IMG/VR virus record: IMGVR_UViG_3300028610_001412
Location: 1 to 42,282 of that record
DNA from: a virus
Reading direction: 5' to 3' (one strand)
DNA length: 42,282 nucleotides
Each line of letters begins with the position of its first letter. Position 1 is the stretch's first letter. Position numbers and translations under genes: made by a program. The notes beneath the pieces are model-generated. The model was not told the origin of the DNA and did not search any database. It was given only the letters and a program-made list of their open reading frames with translations. Positions 381 through 42,282 of the stretch are shown here, one piece after another.

Positions 381-422
381 AGCGGGCCTGGCAGGGCCTT
401 TTAATAACACAAAACATGGAGG
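381..422 (+). repeat. leader repeat, copy A (hairpin plus ribosome site)
   Basis: This 42-base segment matches 2524-2565 at 40 of 42 positions. It contains GGCC arms (385-388, 395-398) around a TGGCAG loop, then an A-rich spacer and the GGAGG ribosome site (418-422) of the first small gene. The conserved hairpin plus ribosome site suggests a structured mRNA leader that could control translation. In phage Mu, Com acts on the mom leader, which is a loose precedent only. Confidence 0.7.
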
Positions 423-430
423 CAAAGACT

Positions 431-574
431 ATGCAAACCACGTGCCAGAACCTACCCAGGACACCCCAAAAAACATCAACACAGAACATAGAACACATGG
501 CCAAGCTTTACGGGCTTACTTTTGAAGATGCCCGCATTCTGTATAGGTTTTTAAACATTAAGGAGGTCAAATAA
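431..574 (+). CDS. small unknown protein, first gene of the accessory operon
   Basis: A 47-residue frame starts at ATG 431, eight bases after a GGAGG site. It runs to TAA at 572-574, and its 3' end carries the AAGGAGG ribosome site of the next gene, whose ATG is one base beyond the stop. The C-terminal half (HMAKLYGLTFEDARILYRFL) reads like a short helical segment, and I recognise no family. The good ribosome site and tight spacing argue that it is translated, perhaps as a leader gene that couples translation of the next. Confidence 0.55.
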   Translation: MQTTCQNLPRTPQKTSTQNIEHMAKLYGLTFEDARILYRFLNIKEVK

Positions 575-575
575 T

Positions 576-932
576 ATGGCGCGCGAGCAGAGCAAATACG
601 GTACCTCAATCAAGCGCCTTGTGTTATGTGTTGAGGCGGCAAAAGAAGGTAAGGATATCTCCTCGGGCATCTGGACTAGCCCGACCTGGACGCCTGAGAA
701 GTTCTGGCAGTGGTTCCATTCATGCCTTAACAGGAAGATCAACCGCAAGGACCGGCGCGAGCGGACATACCGCAAGATGCAAGAGGAGCACAAGCAGTAT
801 ATGAGGCGCGATGCCCGGATCATAAACGACTATGCCCGGCGCGTTATGCGCAGGGGATTAAATGTCTTATCCACACCGGAAATGAGGGCGAAGTATCCGC
901 ATATTAACAACAACATGGGAGAGGAGATTTAG
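576..932 (+). CDS. hypothetical basic protein (118 aa)
   Basis: No family recognised. The protein is rich in Trp near residues 33-46 (IWTSPTWTPEKFWQWF) and then strongly basic and helical (residues 52-95, many Arg/Lys), which could suit nucleic-acid binding, but this is inference only. The start follows AAGGAGG at 559-565. It is followed after four bases by the next gene and belongs to the first of two cassette-like blocks of the plus-strand operon. Confidence 0.65.
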   Translation: MAREQSKYGTSIKRLVLCVEAAKEGKDISSGIWTSPTWTPEKFWQWFHSCLNRKINRKDRRERTYRKMQEEHKQYMRRDARIINDYARRVMRRGLNVLSTPEMRAKYPHINNNMGEEI

Positions 933-936
933 CCAT

Positions 937-1527
937 ATGAAAGCCAAGGAGACATTAAAGAAGATGGGGTTAGAATCCCCAGGGACAGCGGAAGCCACGC
1001 AGGCGATCCTCTGGCCGCTGGTAACAAAGTACACCGGCACAAGCGCCGTACACTTGACAAACGACGGCGAAAAGGCCAAATGCGGAGCCCGTTCATATTA
1101 CAGGAGCGGCATGTTGTATATCACTGACGACCGGGACCGCGTGACATGTAAACGCTGCCTGGGTACGGTTGAAAAAACAAGCGCGATCGCGGAATTAACG
1201 GGGGATTATGTAGGTAAGATATTTACATATTCCTTTGGATATGACATGACCATAAACGTATTTGCCAAGGTGGTCCGGCAGACAAAGAAAACTCTCTTCC
1301 TGCAAGAAGTCGAGATGAGTGTCAGCGATGATTGTGGTCAGGGATCCGGCCGGGCTGAGGCATCGCCCGAGATCACGGAGAATGGAGTCGAATATCCAAT
1401 TATTGAAGGCTCAAAAATCATCAAAGCACAGAAGCGCGTTTATCCTTACGGTGAATACTGGGTCAGCGGCCGTCACCACTGGTATGAATGGGACGGCAAG
1501 CCGAAATATCATAATACCTGGGATTGA
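937..1527 (+). CDS. hypothetical protein with CxxC pair (196 aa)
   Basis: No family recognised. Around residues 49-75 there is a Cys (KCGARSYY) and then a CKRC pair (VTCKRCLG), a pattern that could bind zinc. It is preceded by a HLTND/GARSYY arrangement like those in small phage proteins of the 'knuckle' type. The C-terminal third is rich in Tyr and Trp. The start at 937 follows GGAGAGGA (918-925). A gap of 83 bases separates it from the next gene. Confidence 0.65.
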   Translation: MKAKETLKKMGLESPGTAEATQAILWPLVTKYTGTSAVHLTNDGEKAKCGARSYYRSGMLYITDDRDRVTCKRCLGTVEKTSAIAELTGDYVGKIFTYSFGYDMTINVFAKVVRQTKKTLFLQEVEMSVSDDCGQGSGRAEASPEITENGVEYPIIEGSKIIKAQKRVYPYGEYWVSGRHHWYEWDGKPKYHNTWD

Positions 1528-1610
1528 GCGGGCCGAGTTTTGAGGGTAGGGCTTTAGCCTTGCCCTGAGTGCTTGGATCGCGTATAAATCTATTATGAAA
1601 AGGAGGAGTC

Positions 1611-2504
1611 ATGCACACTGAATTAATAGAACATCAAAAGGTCTCTGCCATTGTGGAGAATGTCAAGCTGGCAATGGATGAGGCCGCGCAAGGTGTGGGC
1701 CTGCTCAACAAGGCCAAAACTAGGCTATTCCATACACTGGGTCAGGCAAATGACAGCCTATGGAATCACCGCTCCGACGTTTCGGACTATTCGTTTGGCG
1801 GTGACGTTTCCAGTGTCCTGGAAAGCATGAATAAAAACATCCGGCGCAATGCCTGGCGGTATCTTCTTAACCAGACCGGATTAATTGCAATGATGAGCCA
1901 GAAGGACCGCGACGAAATAGAAAAACAGGTAGAAGACGGCAAGACGCCCGACGTGACAGAACAAAATATATTTGCTTTTTTTGAGAACATGAGCGAGGAT
2001 CTCCCCGACCTGCTTAACAAGCATGTAAAAGAGGTTTTCGACTGGCTAAAGCCCGGTGCACATATGCACGACTACAAGACAAACAAAAAGTATCGCATCG
2101 GGGCAAAGGTTATTGTCGAATGGATCGCGGAGCATAACTACAGCGGAGGGATGAGGCTGAATTATAGGAGGGAAAATAATATAACAAGTCTGGACAATGT
2201 TTTCAGGCTGATTGAGGGCCGAGGGATAGGCAAGTATCCGGACGATCTGAGGACGCGATTAAATGAAGCTATGAGAGATAATGCAATGCCCTTTGAAGAT
2301 GAATATTTCAGGATCAAATGGTTTAAAAAAGGCACAATGCACCTTGAAATAAAGCGGGCTGACCTACTGAAAGAACTTAACCGTATAGGCGGCGGCGTGG
2401 ACCTACCAGGGCCAGAGCACGAACGGCCGGGAAGAGCGAGCAAGCCAGGCAATGGCAAAGGAAGCGCGGCCACCTTGCTAAAAATGGGAATCAACCAAAA
2501 ATGA
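1611..2504 (+). CDS. DUF4942-like protein (297 aa)
   Basis: The protein resembles the DUF4942 group seen in phages and mobile elements: an N-terminal helical part, a middle segment with SLDNVFRLIEGRG, and the conserved ending YFRIKWFKKGTMHLEIKR followed by a DLLKELN helix (about residues 235-260). DUF4942 domains are often found next to or fused to DNA methyltransferases, but the biochemical role is unknown. The start follows AAAGGAGG. The last codons and the stop (NQK, TGA) lie inside a repeat tag shared with the end of the 3464-3649 gene, and the C-terminal 35 residues are low complexity (Gly, Pro, Lys). Confidence 0.65.
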   Translation: MHTELIEHQKVSAIVENVKLAMDEAAQGVGLLNKAKTRLFHTLGQANDSLWNHRSDVSDYSFGGDVSSVLESMNKNIRRNAWRYLLNQTGLIAMMSQKDRDEIEKQVEDGKTPDVTEQNIFAFFENMSEDLPDLLNKHVKEVFDWLKPGAHMHDYKTNKKYRIGAKVIVEWIAEHNYSGGMRLNYRRENNITSLDNVFRLIEGRGIGKYPDDLRTRLNEAMRDNAMPFEDEYFRIKWFKKGTMHLEIKRADLLKELNRIGGGVDLPGPEHERPGRASKPGNGKGSAATLLKMGINQK

Positions 2505-2519
2505 GCCAGCCATAATTGG
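2489..2519 (+). repeat. 3' tag repeat, single copy closing the first block
   Basis: The sequence AATCAACCAAAAATGAGCCA and onward to AATTGG at 2519 matches the unit repeated four times at 3634-3767, apart from three extra bases in the A-rich part. It overlaps the stop codon of the DUF4942-like gene and ends five bases before the second leader repeat (2524). Each unit contains ATGAGCCAGCCATAA, a four-codon open frame. Confidence 0.75.
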
Positions 2520-2523
2520 GGAC

Positions 2524-2565
2524 AGCGGGCCTGGCAGGGCCTTGTAATAACACTAAACATGGAGG
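2524..2565 (+). repeat. leader repeat, copy B (hairpin plus ribosome site)
   Basis: This is the second copy of the 42-base leader, differing from copy A at two positions in the linker and not in the hairpin or ribosome site. It has GGCC arms around TGGCAG (loop at 2532-2537) and GGAGG at 2561-2565. It feeds the GTG start at 2573. I see no separate promoter directly upstream, so it probably lies within the operon transcript. Confidence 0.7.
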
Positions 2566-2572
2566 TGTGGCC

Positions 2573-2914
2573 GTGAAGGTCGAATTAGCCATAAATCAAG
2601 AAGGGTTTGGAGCGTGTACCGTGTACCGTGAAGAAGGCGATCCTAAATGCTCGGGCGTTGTTAATGCCGCAGGGGAAAGCCGTCTTCTCTATCACATGAA
2701 AAGGATACTAAACGCAGAGGGCCATCGTTTCATAAAAACCCGGATGCACAAGCACGGCCACCTTATGTCAGATATGCAGCAGTACATCTATGACAGACAT
2801 TCAGGGATAGCGATCTATAACGGTTACTGGCAGATACGCGGAGCAGAGGAAGATTTTAATAACGATGGGAAGACCGTATTCGCAGTTGAAAACCTTAAAA
2901 AGGAGGCTGCTTGA
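2573..2914 (+). CDS. hypothetical protein (113 aa), GTG start
   Basis: I chose the GTG at 2573 because it is seven bases after GGAGG of leader copy B; an in-frame ATG at 2516 lies upstream inside the tag repeat and has no ribosome site. No family recognised. The protein has a mixed alpha/beta look with His-rich positions (EGHRFIKTRMHKHGHLMSD) and a Trp near residue 89 (NGYWQIRG), a pattern reminiscent of small phage proteins of unknown role. The next gene begins one base after its stop. Confidence 0.65.
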   Translation: MKVELAINQEGFGACTVYREEGDPKCSGVVNAAGESRLLYHMKRILNAEGHRFIKTRMHKHGHLMSDMQQYIYDRHSGIAIYNGYWQIRGAEEDFNNDGKTVFAVENLKKEAA

Positions 2915-2915
2915 T

Positions 2916-3350
2916 ATGAGAGCTGACCAGGTAAAGACGGCGAAGGGGCGCGCGGGCATTGCCGCCCGGATGTATAAGAATTACAAGTCACTTGGACGAA
3001 CTTTTGATGATTGCTTTGAGATGGGGGACGGCGGCGAAGTTGTGAGACATCTTATCGCTATGGCCATCAAGGATAAAGACCTTGAATATGCCATGAGGTA
3101 CACGCATAGCAGATATACAGGGGAGTCCTGGTTGAAAGCCATTGACCTCCAGGATCCTAGCCATGCTGTCAAGGGGCCTGACTTGAGGCCACTAGTGCAA
3201 CAGTATCCGGAAATGGCTCCAATTGTTAAAGCGATCACTGAGAATGTTGCAAGGACCATAAACGAAACCCCGCTTCACATTGAGCGCTTGACATATGCCA
3301 AAAAGGGCCTGCTAGAGGCGGTTATACAGGAGCTGCAGGAAGCAGTCTAA
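2916..3350 (+). CDS. hypothetical protein (144 aa)
   Basis: The start ATG 2916 is preceded by AAGGAGG inside the previous gene, and the stop of that gene is at 2912-2914, so the two are coupled. No family recognised. The sequence looks soluble and helical: a basic N terminus (RADQVKTAKGRAGIAARMYK), a central acidic stretch and a long C-terminal helix. It belongs to the second block of the operon. Confidence 0.65.
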   Translation: MRADQVKTAKGRAGIAARMYKNYKSLGRTFDDCFEMGDGGEVVRHLIAMAIKDKDLEYAMRYTHSRYTGESWLKAIDLQDPSHAVKGPDLRPLVQQYPEMAPIVKAITENVARTINETPLHIERLTYAKKGLLEAVIQELQEAV

Positions 3351-3376
3351 ACCAACGTATAATAAAGGAGGGAAGA

Positions 3377-3433
3377 AACCGCCCCCGCTGGCAGGCGGGG
3401 ACGGTTAAACATAGAGGCATAGCAAGGCTATGC
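3377..3433 (+). promoter_or_regulatory. third leader: two hairpins upstream of the RHH gene
   Basis: The first hairpin has CCCCGC/GCGGGG arms (3383-3388, 3395-3400) around the same TGGCAG loop found in leader copies A and B, extended by AACCG/CGGTT after one mismatch. As in copies A and B it is followed by AAACATnGAGG (here 3408-3417). A second perfect hairpin, GCATAGC/GCTATGC with a 3-base loop, spans 3417-3433. No T-run follows, so a Rho-independent terminator is unlikely. The different stem with an identical loop points to an RNA element. Confidence 0.55.
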
Positions 3434-3463
3434 TTAACCCATAATATCACCTGAGGAGGGTGC

Positions 3464-3649
3464 ATGTCAAAAGATAAAATCGCAAAGACGAGGGTCTCTG
3501 AGAGAGACAAGGCGAGCATTGATAAAAGGTGGAAGGCTCTCGGGTTCAGGAGCGAGTCAGAGTACCTCCTGGCACTCCTGAAAGCGGATATCCCTGCCAT
3601 GGACCCGGCCAGGGAATTGAAGGGGCTCGATGAGAAAAATCAAAAATGA
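3464..3649 (+). CDS. small ribbon-helix-helix-like protein (61 aa)
   Basis: The protein starts after GAGGAGG. Its middle part (TRVSERDKASIDKRWKALGF, then SESEYLLALL) has the spacing of a ribbon-helix-helix DNA-binding fold like those of small plasmid and phage regulators: a short basic strand, then two helices. It could regulate this operon, as it is its last gene. The C terminus (EKNQK) and stop lie in the first unit of the tandem tag array, as in the DUF4942-like gene, which also ends NQK. Confidence 0.55.
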   Translation: MSKDKIAKTRVSERDKASIDKRWKALGFRSESEYLLALLKADIPAMDPARELKGLDEKNQK

Positions 3650-3767
3650 GCCAGCCATAATTGGCAGAGAAAAATCAATAATGAGCCAGCCATAATTGGT
3701 AGGGAAAAATCAATAATGAGCCAGCCATAATTGGTAGGGAAAAATCAATAATGAGCCAGCCATAATC
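3634..3767. repeat. four tandem 35-base repeats between convergent operons
   Basis: Units begin at 3634, 3669, 3704 and 3739, an exact 35-base period. The core is GAAAAATCAATAATGAGCCA followed by GCCATAATTGGTAGG; unit 1 overlaps the end of the RHH gene and unit 4 ends at the stop codon of the tail gene on the other strand (3766-3768). GCCA/TGGC or GCCA/TGGT arms can form only a weak 4-base stem, so this is not a classical terminator. A fifth, separate copy is at 2489-2519. Confidence 0.85.
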
Positions 3768-5958
3768 AGGACCACCACTCGAGGGCGGTTACTGTGGCTC
3801 GGAACTCGTCAAGGCGCGCGAAGGATTCAATGTAGAATTTCCGGCCAGAGAACAGCCCGCCTGAGATATCCACGGTGTCGCCCGTCTGTAGATCGAAATG
3901 CTCAAAGTACAGAGGGAAGGTGATCGTCATAAGAGGGATCTTGCGCTGTAGGAGGACGTGGGCCAGGACGTTGTCAGCCATAACCGAGTCCCTGATCGAG
4001 AAGAAGTCCACGGTGTCCACATAATCGCCGAACTTTGCCTGGCTGGCAGCGTCTGAGATCTCCGTGGTGCCGTCCCAGTCACCTTCATTGAGGGAGGGCA
4101 GGTAATTGATCTTAAAGCGCCCTGTGAGCACGTTGATCACATCCGTGACGCTTCCCTTCTCAAATTGGAATAAAGCCCGCTCTCCGGCCAGCTCCGACTC
4201 GTCTATGGTCCTCACGGCCGCAGGTGCCACATCGGGGATGAAGTTCAGGAACCATGAGCCCCTGTCATAGCTGATAGTGCTCCGGGCCTCGAAGGCCAGG
4301 CGCTTGAGTTCCTTTGACGGCGTTATCGTCTTGTTGAACACCTGACCGAATTTATACCCGCCCGCGATCTCCGCTGCGTACAGGACGCCAGCGGCGTCAA
4401 AGGACGCCTGGTCTATCTCGGAGAGGGAGAACTCCATGCGGTCGACCAGGAAGTGCTTTATCACGTCCTCCGGGCGCTCGATGAGGACACCGACCCCGCC
4501 GAAATCCCCGGTGCCGTCAACCGCCCAGTCAGCATCGACCGTGATGTCGTCGCCCACCACGATCCTGCTTGTGGCCGTGGCCTCGAGGGACTTGTCCTGG
4601 AGGATCTGCTCGTTGAAATAATTAACGCTCTTTGAAAGCTCCAGAACGTCCATCTGGCCGGTAATGATGATAACCCTTGTCAGGGTATCCCAAAGCCCAT
4701 CATTGTGCGTGTGCGTGACCGTGGCGCTCTCTGACGCCTCGATCGTATGCCTTGTGATCTTGCGGCCGGTGCCGTCCGGATCCGAGGAGATGAGATCGAA
4801 GACGACAGGGTCAGCTCCGCTTGTCTCCACTATCTGAGCGGAGTGTGTCTGTGACACGATATCCCCGAGCGACGTGGACTCATACGACACCCACGCCTGA
4901 TTTAAGGCCGTAGGAAGCAGTGAGACGCCTTCTACCGTGCCATCGGCGACTCTGTCGTCCGAGACTATCTGCGCGGGCTTGCCTTTGGCCACACTCGTAT
5001 TGTCGGCCGAGGGGACGCGATCGCGGTTGACCGTCTTTGAGACCTCGAGCACCCGGATATCCTCGTCAATGGGCACGAGGTTTAAAATGGTCTCCCAGTT
5101 GCCCTGGTCCTGCTCGAGCACAAAGGTGCGACTCTGTCCGGCCGTAACGGTTAGCTTCTTCCTGAACGCCGCGCTCTTTGTCGCCTCGTCAAGCGCCATT
5201 GCGTAGACGCTGCCGTCTGATCCTCCGTCGTTCTGGAGCTGGATAGTGTAGGTCTGTTTTTTCACGACACCTGAGGCAAGCGCAAACGCTGCCCAGGCTA
5301 GCGGAGTCCCCGTCAGGCTCAAAGTGATAAAGCTGGCAGTATCGCCGTCCACCAGCTCGTCGTGAGATGCCTCGTTTATCTCAGCCACAACATCCTCGCC
5401 GGTCTCCCTTATGCTTGCCTGCTCCTGGTTCAGGGCGCGTTGTTTCTCCACGAAAGCCTGCACGTCTATCTCCACGACCGAGAAGCCCGGCCAGTCCGCG
5501 TGCTCGTCGCCAGCCTGGCCGGTGTAGGCCGTAAAATCCTCTGACTGTTTCTTGCCGTCAATGTAGAGGCTGTCGATGGACTTGACCGGCTCCTTGCTTA
5601 CCAGGTAGACGTAATTGTCCCTTGCCTCGTAGACCGTCCTGGATATCCTGTGTTCCGCTGCGGTAGTGCCGTCAAAAGCCCTGGTGACCGTGAACGTCGT
5701 CCCGGCCTTGACGGTCACTCTCATGCGCTCGAAGCCTACCTGGACAGTGAAGGGAGCTGCGGGAAAGCGTGAGGCGTCCTCAACCACGATCGACGTTGCC
5801 GAGGCGGAGACGGCCGCTGCCAGGAATGCGGTAGCACCGCCCACGATGCAGTGGGCCCGGACGCCGTCCACCGTGCCATACCCAAAGTTCGGGCGTCGGC
5901 CGATGTCGGCAAGGTCGATGTTAGGGAAGTCGTCGGCCGACAGGGGAATGGGGATCAT
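3766..5958 (-). CDS. tail tip / receptor-binding region protein (730 aa)
   Basis: This is the last and largest gene of the tail module, which in siphoviruses is the place of the central tail-tip (hub or host-specificity) protein. The N-terminal part (residues 1-150) has a beta-rich, Val/Thr-rich domain; the middle contains two similar stretches (around VLEVSKTVNRD and VLELSKSVNYF, each following a WETILNLVPI or LWDTLTRVIII segment), suggesting an internal duplication. The C terminus (LQTGDTVDISGGLF, then YIESFARLDEFRATVTALEW) is typical of phage tail-tip proteins. The start overlaps the preceding stop (ATGA). The exact role is inferred from position. Confidence 0.6.
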   Translation of the reverse strand: MIPIPLSADDFPNIDLADIGRRPNFGYGTVDGVRAHCIVGGATAFLAAAVSASATSIVVEDASRFPAAPFTVQVGFERMRVTVKAGTTFTVTRAFDGTTAAEHRISRTVYEARDNYVYLVSKEPVKSIDSLYIDGKKQSEDFTAYTGQAGDEHADWPGFSVVEIDVQAFVEKQRALNQEQASIRETGEDVVAEINEASHDELVDGDTASFITLSLTGTPLAWAAFALASGVVKKQTYTIQLQNDGGSDGSVYAMALDEATKSAAFRKKLTVTAGQSRTFVLEQDQGNWETILNLVPIDEDIRVLEVSKTVNRDRVPSADNTSVAKGKPAQIVSDDRVADGTVEGVSLLPTALNQAWVSYESTSLGDIVSQTHSAQIVETSGADPVVFDLISSDPDGTGRKITRHTIEASESATVTHTHNDGLWDTLTRVIIITGQMDVLELSKSVNYFNEQILQDKSLEATATSRIVVGDDITVDADWAVDGTGDFGGVGVLIERPEDVIKHFLVDRMEFSLSEIDQASFDAAGVLYAAEIAGGYKFGQVFNKTITPSKELKRLAFEARSTISYDRGSWFLNFIPDVAPAAVRTIDESELAGERALFQFEKGSVTDVINVLTGRFKINYLPSLNEGDWDGTTEISDAASQAKFGDYVDTVDFFSIRDSVMADNVLAHVLLQRKIPLMTITFPLYFEHFDLQTGDTVDISGGLFSGRKFYIESFARLDEFRATVTALEWWS

Positions 5959-25848: not shown

Positions 25849-25913
25849 ATAGGGGAGTGGAGATTGTTGCGGTCTTTGATATTGCTATCTGAAATTTATG
25901 TTTAAGCATAGCT

Positions 25914-25928
25914 TTATGCTACGCATAA
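25914..25928. promoter_or_regulatory. TTAT-N7-ATAA dyad, candidate activator site of the late promoter
   Basis: The dyad TTATGCTACGCATAA lies between the Mor/C-like gene and the late operon. Mu C is known to recognise an interrupted palindrome of the TTAT...ATAA type, so this is a plausible site for the phage's own activator, with an A/T-rich -10-like stretch (CATAAAT on the minus strand, about 25896-25902) downstream. A further GCATA/TATGC pair adjoins it. Inference from sequence pattern and place. Confidence 0.45.
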
Positions 25929-37590: not shown

Positions 37591-39306
37591 CTAAACCGCC
37601 TCCAATTGATTCGCCTCGCCGTGGTCCGTGTCGAGCAGACGGCCGAGGCGTTCGTATCTTTCAGCTAGTTCCTGCAGGTCTCCGGACTTGACCTGGTCTC
37701 CGCATTCAGCTTTTATCCTCCTGTTGAGTTCCGGGCTTACCTCTCCAAGCGCGCCCGCCACGAGCTTTATCAGGTCCATAACCGGCAAGAGGGTCTCGCC
37801 GATCTCCCTGTCGATCTCGATCGTGTGGCCCTTGCGCGGCAGATAGACGCGGTTCCCAAGCTTGTCCGCATGTATGTTGAAAGCGACCGTCCCGGCGTAG
37901 GGGATCGAGTCTCTTTTACGGCCGTCCTCGCCGTATGCCGCGTTCTCGATGCTCTTCTTTGTTTTTTGAATGACAGTCTCGGGCGTGGACTTGAATTCCT
38001 GACCGGCGACAGCGTCGTATTCTGTAAAGCGGCCGTCCACTAGCTGGACGGGCTTTGCCTCGTAGCTCTGGCCCTGATATTCGACAGCGATAACCGGGGC
38101 TATCCAGGGCTTGAGGATCGCCTGGACCTTGGCCTTTCTGTAGACTCCAGGAATGTGTTTGATGTTGTACTCTTCGCCCCTGAACCGGATGTGATAGCGA
38201 CCGTCCACAAGGCAGGTCTGCGCCGGGTTAGCAAACAGGTCCTGCATTATCTCAGGCGCGGGGATCTCGCGGAGCTGGTCCGGCTTTATCTGGATCCAAC
38301 TCTCTGTCCGCGTCATTTTTGTACGGGTGTGGATGCGCTCCGCATTGTGCCAGATCGCGAAGTCCAGGGCCCATTCGTTAAGGGTCTCTATGTCGTAGGC
38401 TGGCTCGACCCTGAGAGCACTCTCAAAACACCCTTCAAGCTGGTTATGAAACCCCTCGACCGACCCCCTGGTCCTCGCGTTGCCGGGCATCGTGGGAGGT
38501 ATCTGAACGTCGAGGTGTTCGAGCATCGCAAGCACGGCTCTTGACTTGTTCGCCGAGCCCGCGTCCATCATTAAGATTGAAGGTACGCCCCTGAACGGAT
38601 ATCGCTCGTCTTCCTTGTGTCCCCAGGCCCTCTGCAGGAAGTCAAAGAGGTTGATCTGGTTCTCGCCTTTGGCGTCGTAATAATAGAAGAAGAACGCGCC
38701 GCTGAAATGGTCTACGAGCACGTAGCGGTAGAGCCTGGTTTTTTGTTTGAGATAGTTCTCGGGCTTGTTCTTGTTGAACTCGCTCTCGCGCATAATTCCG
38801 AGCTTCCCGTTCCTGAGATAATATTGGATGCAGATGGACGGGTCAAACTGGTGGACGTGGTTAGGATGCAGGGATCGGAGACCGATGTGGGCGTCTTCGG
38901 TCGCAAGATGCATCTTCGAGAGCTTCCTTTCTTTTAATATCCGGTTTAAGGTCTCGACAGTGACCTGCCCGCGCTCAATTATCCCGTTGTCCTCTGCCAT
39001 TTGAAGTGCGCGCCAGGTGGGCATTATCGAGCCTTTTATTTCACGCCGCGTCTCGTAGCGCAGACCCACGATATATTCGATCTGCTGGTCCGTGATATCG
39101 CACTTTGATTCGCCCTTGTCTTTGCGCTTTTTCCGACCCGACCAGAATCCAAGTTTATTTGCTATCCGGTAGAGCTGGGAGACCGATTTCCCGGTCAGCG
39201 TCTGGTATTCCTTAATAATGGCCGCGCGCGCGCCTGGTGCGGCCGCGATCAACCTGTCTGCAAAAGCTGCCTGCCAGTTGGCGGCTACTTCTTGGCCGGA
39301 TGCCAT
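37591..39306 (-). CDS. MuA-like DDE transposase (571 aa)
   Basis: An N-terminal DNA-binding part (RIANKLGFWSGRKKRKDKGE; IMPTWRALQMAEDNGIIERG) precedes the catalytic RNase H fold. The acidic triad is likely Asp155 (PNHVHQFD), Asp248 (ILMMDAGSAN) and Glu284 (RGSVEGFH), with VLVDHFSGAFFF between. A beta barrel-like domain follows (KVQAILKPWIAPVIAVEYQG), with a C-terminal helical tail (MuB contact in Mu). It joins phage ends to target DNA for replication or integration. The start overlaps the preceding gene by 22 bases. Confidence 0.92.
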   Translation of the reverse strand: MASGQEVAANWQAAFADRLIAAAPGARAAIIKEYQTLTGKSVSQLYRIANKLGFWSGRKKRKDKGESKCDITDQQIEYIVGLRYETRREIKGSIMPTWRALQMAEDNGIIERGQVTVETLNRILKERKLSKMHLATEDAHIGLRSLHPNHVHQFDPSICIQYYLRNGKLGIMRESEFNKNKPENYLKQKTRLYRYVLVDHFSGAFFFYYYDAKGENQINLFDFLQRAWGHKEDERYPFRGVPSILMMDAGSANKSRAVLAMLEHLDVQIPPTMPGNARTRGSVEGFHNQLEGCFESALRVEPAYDIETLNEWALDFAIWHNAERIHTRTKMTRTESWIQIKPDQLREIPAPEIMQDLFANPAQTCLVDGRYHIRFRGEEYNIKHIPGVYRKAKVQAILKPWIAPVIAVEYQGQSYEAKPVQLVDGRFTEYDAVAGQEFKSTPETVIQKTKKSIENAAYGEDGRKRDSIPYAGTVAFNIHADKLGNRVYLPRKGHTIEIDREIGETLLPVMDLIKLVAGALGEVSPELNRRIKAECGDQVKSGDLQELAERYERLGRLLDTDHGEANQLEAV

Positions 39307-40139
39307 GTCTTGCCTTTCTCTGTGAGTCCCTGGCCGTATTTATCAACGGCCTGTTGGTAGAGCAGCTCTCCGTGGTCCCGCATGTATTTGATCGTGTTCA
39401 GGAGGTCTGCGCGCTTGCGCGGTGTCATGTCCTCGGCCTCTTCCTCCATCGCGTCAACCGAGGCCGCGATCGCCCATCCGTCGAACCCGGTTTTTATCTT
39501 GTCCATGTACTCGCTGAACGCGACCTCTTCCTCGGGGATGCCCCATTGCTCGGCCTTGCGCTCGTGCTTGTCAAGCTTCTTGATGAGGTTTTTATTCTGA
39601 GTTGCTTTTTCTTTTGCAATCCGTTCGTGCGCTCGCGCCTCGCTGTGCGCGTCGTCAACTATTCTTTTAAGTGCGTCCTCAAGTTCCTTTGCGTGACCGG
39701 GATCCAGGGGGATCTCGTCGCCTCCGATGAGGACTACGCCGTCCACGACTTTAACGCCCCCGTCGTGGGATATCTGCCTGAGTTCCCGCATTTGCCTATA
39801 TCCAAGCCCCAAATTGGAGACCGTCTCCAAAAAATCCTGGCCGAATTCATTGAGGTTCAGGAGGTCCTCGTCTACGGTTCTGCGGTCTAACCCTATGTAT
39901 TTACAGTATTCCGGCCATGTTCCGAGCAGCTTGTAAGCCTTGGTATCCTTGACCTGCCGTAACCACAATAAAGTGGCTACGTTGCCATATTTGGCGAACA
40001 TGTCCGCCGTCTCAATGCGACCGGCCATTCTCCCCAGGCTCATCGCGTGTTCGATGAGGTCTTGTTTGTTGATCTTGCTCACGTCCCCCTTGGCGATCGC
40101 CAGAGCTGCGGCCGACTCGTGGTCAGGTGCTTTGCTCAT
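39285..40139 (-). CDS. early phage protein of unknown role (284 aa)
   Basis: No certain family. The N-terminal 100 residues (LGRMAGRIETADMFAKYGNV, ATLLWLRQVKDTKAYKLLGT, then WPEYCKYIGLDRRTVDEDLL) recall helix-turn-helix early proteins of phages; residues 155-215 are a long charged helix (ALKRIVDDAHSEARAHERIA). It comes between the regulators and transposase, so it may act in replication or regulate early genes. Confidence 0.6.
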   Translation of the reverse strand: MSKAPDHESAAALAIAKGDVSKINKQDLIEHAMSLGRMAGRIETADMFAKYGNVATLLWLRQVKDTKAYKLLGTWPEYCKYIGLDRRTVDEDLLNLNEFGQDFLETVSNLGLGYRQMRELRQISHDGGVKVVDGVVLIGGDEIPLDPGHAKELEDALKRIVDDAHSEARAHERIAKEKATQNKNLIKKLDKHERKAEQWGIPEEEVAFSEYMDKIKTGFDGWAIAASVDAMEEEAEDMTPRKRADLLNTIKYMRDHGELLYQQAVDKYGQGLTEKGKTWHPAKK

Positions 40140-40192
40140 TTAGAAACCTCCTGGTATTTGTCCAGCGCCTCCAGGGCGCGTTCTTCTTCTGA
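40136..40192 (-). repeat. 57-base duplication, copy 1
   Basis: Matches 40330-40386 at 54 of 57 positions; the three differences are all synonymous. It encodes the shared C terminus, the ribosome site and start codon of the following gene (GGAGGTTTCTAAATGA). Confidence 0.85.
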
Positions 40193-40333
40193 CACGTCTA
40201 ACCTGGCGCGCTTGCGGCTCTCTATTCGAGACATCAACTTTTTGCGGTCAAGACTGAGTATCTCTTGGAGGGGGCCTCTGTAGAAATTTGCACGCCCATC
40301 TTTAAGGCTCAAACCAAAAAAGAGTGTTCTCAT
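40136..40333 (-). CDS. small protein, tandem paralogue 2 (65 aa)
   Basis: Its 18-residue C terminus (SEEERALEALDKYQEVSK) is the same as that of the upstream neighbour, while the N-terminal part differs. No known family; the N terminus has a beta-like start (MRTLFFGLSLKDGRANFYRG), then a basic region. The stop region holds the GGAGG site of the next gene. Confidence 0.65.
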   Translation of the reverse strand: MRTLFFGLSLKDGRANFYRGPLQEILSLDRKKLMSRIESRKRARLDVSEEERALEALDKYQEVSK

Positions 40334-40386
40334 TTAGAGACCTCCTGATATTTGTCCAGCGCCTCAAGGGCGCGTTCTTCTTCTGA
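40330..40386 (-). repeat. 57-base duplication, copy 2
   Basis: Second copy of the 57-base block; see 40136-40192. It ends gene 40330-40581 and supplies the ribosome site and start of 40136-40333. Confidence 0.85.
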
Positions 40387-40581
40387 GGTGTCAGAGTTGA
40401 GACGCCTTATGTTCTTTATCCGAGAAATCAAGGATTCTCTTGAGAAACAGATTTCAGAATAAGAGCGGGCTTCAATTTGGCCTACCGAATTAATCGTAAA
40501 TAGATGATTGATAAACCCTTTGTCAAAAAGAGCGACTGGTCCCCACCCGCGCTCTTCGATGCCTAAGAATTTGACTGCCAT
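40330..40581 (-). CDS. small protein, tandem paralogue 1 (83 aa)
   Basis: ATG 40581 is preceded by GGAGGTGA. The N-terminal part (MAVKFLGIEERGWGPVALFD, SVGQIEARSYSEICFSRESL) is beta-like; the last 18 residues match those of the following gene. A longer frame upstream overlaps the previous gene and lacks a ribosome site. No family recognised. Confidence 0.65.
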   Translation of the reverse strand: MAVKFLGIEERGWGPVALFDKGFINHLFTINSVGQIEARSYSEICFSRESLISRIKNIRRLNSDTSEEERALEALDKYQEVSK

Positions 40582-41825: not shown

Positions 41826-42149
41826 ATGAGGGTGAAAATTTTATTAAGCGCGGCCGTAATTATTTTATGCCTGTCTTCGTTGACGGCCTGGGCCGGTCCG
41901 GTCGAGATAGATGGGATATGGGTCTCTGATTATATGACCGTTGAGATCAACGTAGAGAAGGGGATTTACAAGGGCGTTAATATGGGCAAGCAATTCTCAA
42001 AGACCGTCAGGCTGGTTGACCAATATGCTAACGTCTTTGTTTTAAGCGCGGCCGACGGGAAAATCACTATCCAGATCGGTCGGGATGGGAGTATTTTGCT
42101 GACCGAGGAAGGCGGAAGTCCAGACTTTCTTATGAGATTTAAAGACTGA
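41826..42149 (+). CDS. small secreted protein (107 aa)
   Basis: ATG 41826 follows GAGGAGGGGG in the end of the repressor gene, so the two are co-transcribed. The N terminus (MRVKILLSAAVIILCLSSLT, then AWAG) is a Sec signal peptide with an AxA-type site. The mature part (IDGIWVSDYMTVEINVEKGI) is beta-rich with lipocalin-like repeats. Expressed with the repressor, it is a likely lysogenic-conversion (moron) product of unknown role. Confidence 0.7.
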   Translation: MRVKILLSAAVIILCLSSLTAWAGPVEIDGIWVSDYMTVEINVEKGIYKGVNMGKQFSKTVRLVDQYANVFVLSAADGKITIQIGRDGSILLTEEGGSPDFLMRFKD

Positions 42150-42272
42150 CTGACAAAGACACGGATCCTTTCTGACACATTGTTTCATAAATACACCTTA
42201 TTCTCCTTTGTACCCTTTTTGTCCCCTTCTTCGGAACAAAGTTTTCGCATTTTCAAGCCTTTTCCTTTCTCA
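42150..42272 (-). repeat. phage left end with transposase-binding-like site
   Basis: Read inward on the minus strand, a TG at 42272 begins a sequence with GGCTTGAAAATGCGAAAACT, whose TGCGAAAACT core (42240-42249) repeats the core at the right end in the same orientation. A CTTGAAnnnnCGAAAA arrangement also occurs near the Mu left end as I remember it. The exact terminus may be at 42272 or at the window's last CA (42281-42282). Confidence 0.5.
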
Positions 42273-42282
42273 TCCCCCCCCA

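Follow-up and report, generated by a model that had tools for sequence, protein, structure and literature searches.

Two short accessory operons of a transposable phage are framed by the same sequences: each begins with a 42-bp leader and ends in a tag that overlaps the stop codon of its last gene, and the genes in between are unrelated. The phage is IMG/VR record IMGVR_UViG_3300028610_001412, a virus contig whose 42,282 bp were analyzed in full (the window). Positions 381-3766 appear to be a moron-type accessory region of foreign-looking composition, made up of these two operons. We tentatively favor, at a little less than even chances, an origin in which general or short-homology recombination at the boundary sequences brought the two blocks side by side and the array of tags that follows block 2 arose by slippage.

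Genome setting of the accessory region

Judged from its genes, the contig is a Mu/B3-like transposable phage, in line with the preliminary description, which had treated it as Mu-like. It encodes transposase A at 37591-39306 (profile match to phrog_310, 1.1e-58), ATPase B (phrog_296, 4.3e-28), a Mu-type major head protein (phrog_371, 3.4e-103), GemA (2.6e-12) and Mor (9.6e-8), together with a Gam-like protein and portal, capsid and tape-measure proteins. The transposase is only about 30% identical to those of the B3 group. Head and tail genes occupy the minus strand, and the repressor is divergent.

The blocks occupy the record end distal to the repressor; they lie beyond the tail genes and are encoded on the strand opposite to them. 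The last gene of the late operon (3766-5958, - strand) encodes a 730-aa tail fibre-like protein and is convergent with the blocks. The record ends read TGGGAGG (from base 7) and, reversed, TGGGGGG, and they have short words in common; scored as Mu-type ends, they do no better than shuffles. Because the ends are only weakly Mu-like, it is gene order and the contact between the tag array and the tail gene that argue for placing the region inside the phage. Tandem GCGCGAAAA words, 23 bp apart at the window ends (1-200 and 42080-42282), are possible transposase end sites, likewise at chance level.

The early region contains another repeat. Two adjacent genes on the minus strand, 40136-40333 and 40330-40581, encode proteins that share their final 18 residues, SEEERALEALDKYQEVSK; their 3' 58 bp are 95% identical and hold the next gene's ribosome-binding site and an ATGA overlap. 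Since the similarity extends over about 40 residues, the pair likely arose by tandem duplication, with the 3' end conserved.

A leader precedes both blocks

The leader occurs at 381-422 and 2524-2565 on the plus strand, exactly where it had been reported, and the two copies are identical at 40 of 42 positions (chance expectation 0.00 in 100 shuffles). Identity begins at GGA(C)AGCGGG, with a GGA / GGAC edge, and stops at the Shine-Dalgarno sequence GGAGG, 7-8 bases upstream of each block's first start codon. Between these limits lie a small GC hairpin and an AT-rich linker. No further copy exists in the 42,282-bp window, and so the leader precedes no other phage gene; a third, degenerate leader before P7, the last gene of block 2, was not supported. 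Upstream of leader 1 is a sigma-70-like promoter (339-367, + strand; TTGAAT-17-TACAAT with TG before the -10), a consensus match only and weak by itself, given that the same scan of the region returns 8 such sites versus 4.6 expected.

This arrangement is what one would see if the leader were a repeated expression element under selection, a 5' untranslated hairpin with a ribosome-binding site that places both operons under the same control, and the tag were a separate matter. The spacing of GGAGG from the starts, the promoter-like site before the leader in block 1, and the fact that both differences fall outside the hairpin and Shine-Dalgarno sequence are consistent with this idea, and there is precedent: the SAS/ESAS of cluster K mycobacteriophages is a repeated noncoding element found before the starts of unrelated genes (PMC3203893). 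Like the SAS/ESAS, the leader is noncoding and stands directly before the start codons of unrelated genes. In contrast, it has a different sequence, is 42 bp long rather than 13, occurs in two copies only and is linked with a 3' tag. The 13-bp SAS consensus GGGATAGGAGCCC has two 2-mismatch matches in our sequence, which is the chance level, and neither is at the leader.

A relaxed search of viral contigs for the leader hairpin plus Shine-Dalgarno sequence returned six matches, roughly the number expected by chance by our estimate, and most of them lie inside longer open frames. Two, in the unrelated viral contigs L019 (1436-1466) and L022 (1899-1925), place the hairpin GGCCTGGCAGGGCC before the starts of ner-like genes. 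The same hairpin before start codons would favor an expression element, but the near-chance total does not, and neither does the predicted fold of the leader, which is no stronger than that of shuffled sequence (z 0.3 and 0.7). The leader also precedes only two genes of the phage, and an expression element leaves the tag at both block ends unexplained. We consider this account possible but fairly unlikely.

The leader cannot be read as a late promoter, since no copy is next to mor, and the same reading of the tag fails in the same way, no tag copy adjoining mor. A hairpin with GCTATGCTTAA does lie just downstream of mor (25896-25920, - strand), the expected place of a Mor-dependent promoter. 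It resembles a hairpin ahead of P7 (3412-3443, + strand), a similarity that is not significant across the window.

A tag closes both blocks

The tag is present in five copies, one closing block 1 (2493-2519) and four in a tandem array with a period of 35 bp (3634-3769), all on the plus strand. Its core, ATGAGCCAGCCATAATTGG, starts at 2501, 3646, 3681 and 3716, and with 2 mismatches at 3751 (chance 0.03). The window holds no additional copy, and there was no support for a degenerate one ahead of leader 1. As originally described, the tag ends each block by covering the last codons and stop of its final gene, P4 (1611-2504) or P7 (3464-3649), so that both proteins finish NQK within it. The spacing between the blocks needs a small correction: four bases, not five, separate tag 1 from leader 2 (2520-2523, GGAC).

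Tandem Repeats Finder agrees with the reported 35-base period, giving 3.9 copies over 3632-3766. The count of four holds with the reservation that the last copy is truncated at its 3' end, where it meets the tail gene's stop codon (3766-3768). The adjacent array copies 2 and 3 match at all 35 positions. The preliminary description had suggested that extra tags are scars of lost blocks; near-identical head-to-tail units are what replication slippage makes, and slippage is the most likely source of the array, with no need for lost blocks. The number of 35-bp copies is probably less certain than the rest of the assembly.

The tag is too weak to be an intrinsic terminator: individual tags have folding energies of -4 to -6 kcal/mol (z from -2.0 to 0.8) and no U run on the plus strand. 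Indeed, no plus-strand terminator was found at the block ends, and a search of Rfam gave no match.

Direct-repeat arrays beside ribbon-helix-helix-type genes are common on plasmids, and P7 is a putative protein of this class. The tags could thus be operators of P7 that belong to block 2 alone, the copy before leader 2 controlling the block and the array binding P7 with high affinity or titrating it. In favor of this, P7 matches NikA weakly (E 0.0055), a helix-helix pair is predicted behind its basic N terminus (monomer model, pLDDT 69), and array copies 2 and 3 contain an imperfect dyad, CAATAATG-N7-CATAATTG (p ~0.05). In the other two array copies (1 and 4) and the tag of block 1, however, the dyad is at chance level; a structure search with P7 gave no significant match; and the promoter scan places no site over the 2493 tag. 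Operators also would not explain why the tag lies over the stop codon of P4. For these reasons we regard this role for the tag as unlikely. Both it and the expression-element role of the leader can be compatible with a recombinational origin of the blocks.

The two blocks contain unrelated genes of similar composition

The two blocks have the same layout: behind the leader come small genes, then an intergenic stretch with strong folding, and finally a gene that ends in the tag. In block 1, P1 (431-574, 47 aa) has no assigned function and P2 (576-932, 118 aa) has no true relative that we could find, its matches in IMG/VR being spurious and inside a 608-aa frame that resembles ribonucleotide reductase. 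P3 (937-1527, 196 aa) is a phage-type protein whose C-terminal half shares 34% identity with a MedDCM phage protein; pairs of Cys residues, picked out by eye, suggest a zinc site. After an intergenic stretch with a strong hairpin (1528-1610, z -4.0) comes P4, a 297-aa DUF4942 protein (E 1.8e-44) from a family that is frequent on plasmids and found in phages too. Block 2 opens with P5 (2573-2914, 113 aa, GTG start), again without an assigned function, followed by P6 (2916-3350, 144 aa), predicted with low confidence to be all-helical. An intergenic stretch with two strong hairpins (3351-3463, z -3.9) then leads to the 61-aa P7. All seven genes are on the plus strand.

The start of P7 also carries a strong promoter-like site on the minus strand (3470-3441; TTGACA-18-TATTAT, 11/12, extended -10), one of two of this strength in the window versus 0.3 expected. 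Two hairpins follow, the second of which (3398-3379) is terminator-like with a T run; 3470-3379 may encode a small RNA antisense to the 5' part of P7.

No protein homology was detected between the genes of block 1 and those of block 2. In composition, the blocks resemble each other and differ from the rest of the phage. Their GC content is 49.2%, lower than in every stretch of equal length elsewhere in the record (minimum 50.6%), and the trinucleotide distance is 0.13 between the blocks and 0.20 and 0.21 from each to the phage core.

Because their genes are unrelated, simple duplication is insufficient to account for the two blocks. Tandem duplication of one leader-gene-tag operon would have to be followed by gene replacement or complete divergence in one copy, as well as slippage of the last tag. 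Leader and tag have diverged to a similar small extent (2 of 42 positions between the leaders, 1 of 27 between the nearest tag copies), as such a duplication would predict, and the early gene pair at 40136-40581 looks like another tandem duplication in this phage that kept its 3' end. Yet with ends that are 95% identical, homologous genes should still be recognizable, and none are; we judge this course of events improbable. The similar divergence of leader and tag could also mean that both ends date from one event.

The least probable explanation, and a very improbable one, is an assembly artefact that fused two phage variants at short common sequences. The record appears to be metagenome-derived, given that close kin are absent from the genome collections searched, and repeats of 27-42 bp are about as long as the words used in assembly. 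But two positions distinguish the leader copies, and collapsed repeats could not have created the junction tag-GGAC-leader, a unique sequence; the one feature at risk is how many copies the 140-bp array contains.

Searches for relatives

An exact-match search of 2.9 million viral contigs (IMG/VR) returned neither leader nor tag, and the DNA of both gave no significant match among phage and plasmid records or in 398 genomes of the phylum of L006. In the collections searched, we found neither sequence with other genes between the ends, nor a related genome with one block, no block or a different block. A relaxed search for tag pairs gave one match, which was unrelated. At the protein level, blastn/tblastn against phages and plasmids gave matches for just two proteins, the DUF4942 protein P4 and P3 (C-terminal half, 34%), and the block and tail proteins had no usable relative in IMG/VR. 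The genome L043 encodes a distant relative of the tail protein and has no such accessory region. L043 also carries a reverse transcriptase-like gene (2924-3949) beside a 118-bp imperfect repeat (4083-4200, 4645-4762), together looking like a diversity-generating retroelement.

As a baseline for the repeats themselves, we compared five transposable phages, Mu, D3112, B3, RcapMu and Komp_PAO1_1. None of them has a comparable non-tandem direct repeat longer than the 33 bp found in RcapMu; by their position, the repeats of RcapMu and Komp, which are at least partly intergenic, may be late promoters. Relative to these five genomes only, the combination of a 42-bp leader pair and a 3' tag is unusual.

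Origin of the blocks

How could two unrelated operons come to have both ends in common? In the recombinational origin that we favor, both operons are probably read from the promoter-like site at 339-367, convergent with the late genes. The leader brings a ribosome-binding site for each first gene, and the tag the final codons and stop of each last one; general or short-homology recombination at these boundaries would have joined one block to another. The simplest route would be for a leader-genes-tag unit to recombine with a resident tag, after which slippage of the last tag would yield the array. We infer the insertion, its direction and its agent from the arrangement of these sequences; selection on function could instead have kept the shared ends.

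As for the agent, the record has no match to the tyrosine recombinase family PF00589, for which control genomes were positive, or to the serine recombinase family PF00239, and no RecT was found in the window. General host recombination is therefore the likelier agent. The preliminary description had the blocks added by recombination or duplication, and of these recombination remains plausible and has a precedent. In phage Island3, gene 68 lies between ~50-bp repeats of the 3' end of a neighboring gene and is absent from Brujita, and its gain or loss was explained by general recombination (PMC3029335). As in Island3, genes here sit between repeated 3' ends of a neighbor gene, so that C-terminal residues are shared. 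Island3 differs in having a single gene, a 3' repeat only and an available relative without the gene, whereas here there are two multigene blocks, a common 5' leader and a tandem tag array.

The idea of an active cassette array is not supported, as site-specific recombinases and RecT are undetectable and the leader and tag were not found elsewhere with other genes. Integron gene cassettes, in which a gene is followed by a repeated 3' sequence, in series, offer a resemblance only; the window has no integrase, the tag is not an attC-like folded site, and the blocks are multigene with a leader of their own. It is quite unlikely, if somewhat less so than a duplicated operon, that this is a true modular array, with leader and tag as docking ends between which interchangeable multigene blocks are gained, stacked and lost.

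In Mu-like phages, the acquisition of accessory genes has been called 'mysterious', with no shared flanking target found (PMC4378225). The present region is like the morons and regions of genomic plasticity described there: low-GC accessory genes sit between conserved phage genes. Composition sets the blocks apart from their neighbors as in morons, and the consensus match at 339-367 is a candidate promoter of their own, but no intrinsic terminator was found at the block end and, unlike those morons, they have a common flanking sequence. Two unrelated blocks in the same phage with both ends in common point to short-homology recombination at boundaries that are neutral for expression. The leader and tag are concrete sequences to seek in relatives, and the question becomes directly testable if relatives hold other genes between the same ends. 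Were the array truly modular, each new block would receive its expression start and stop at once, and this would answer how Mu-like phages gain accessory genes without a dedicated integrase.
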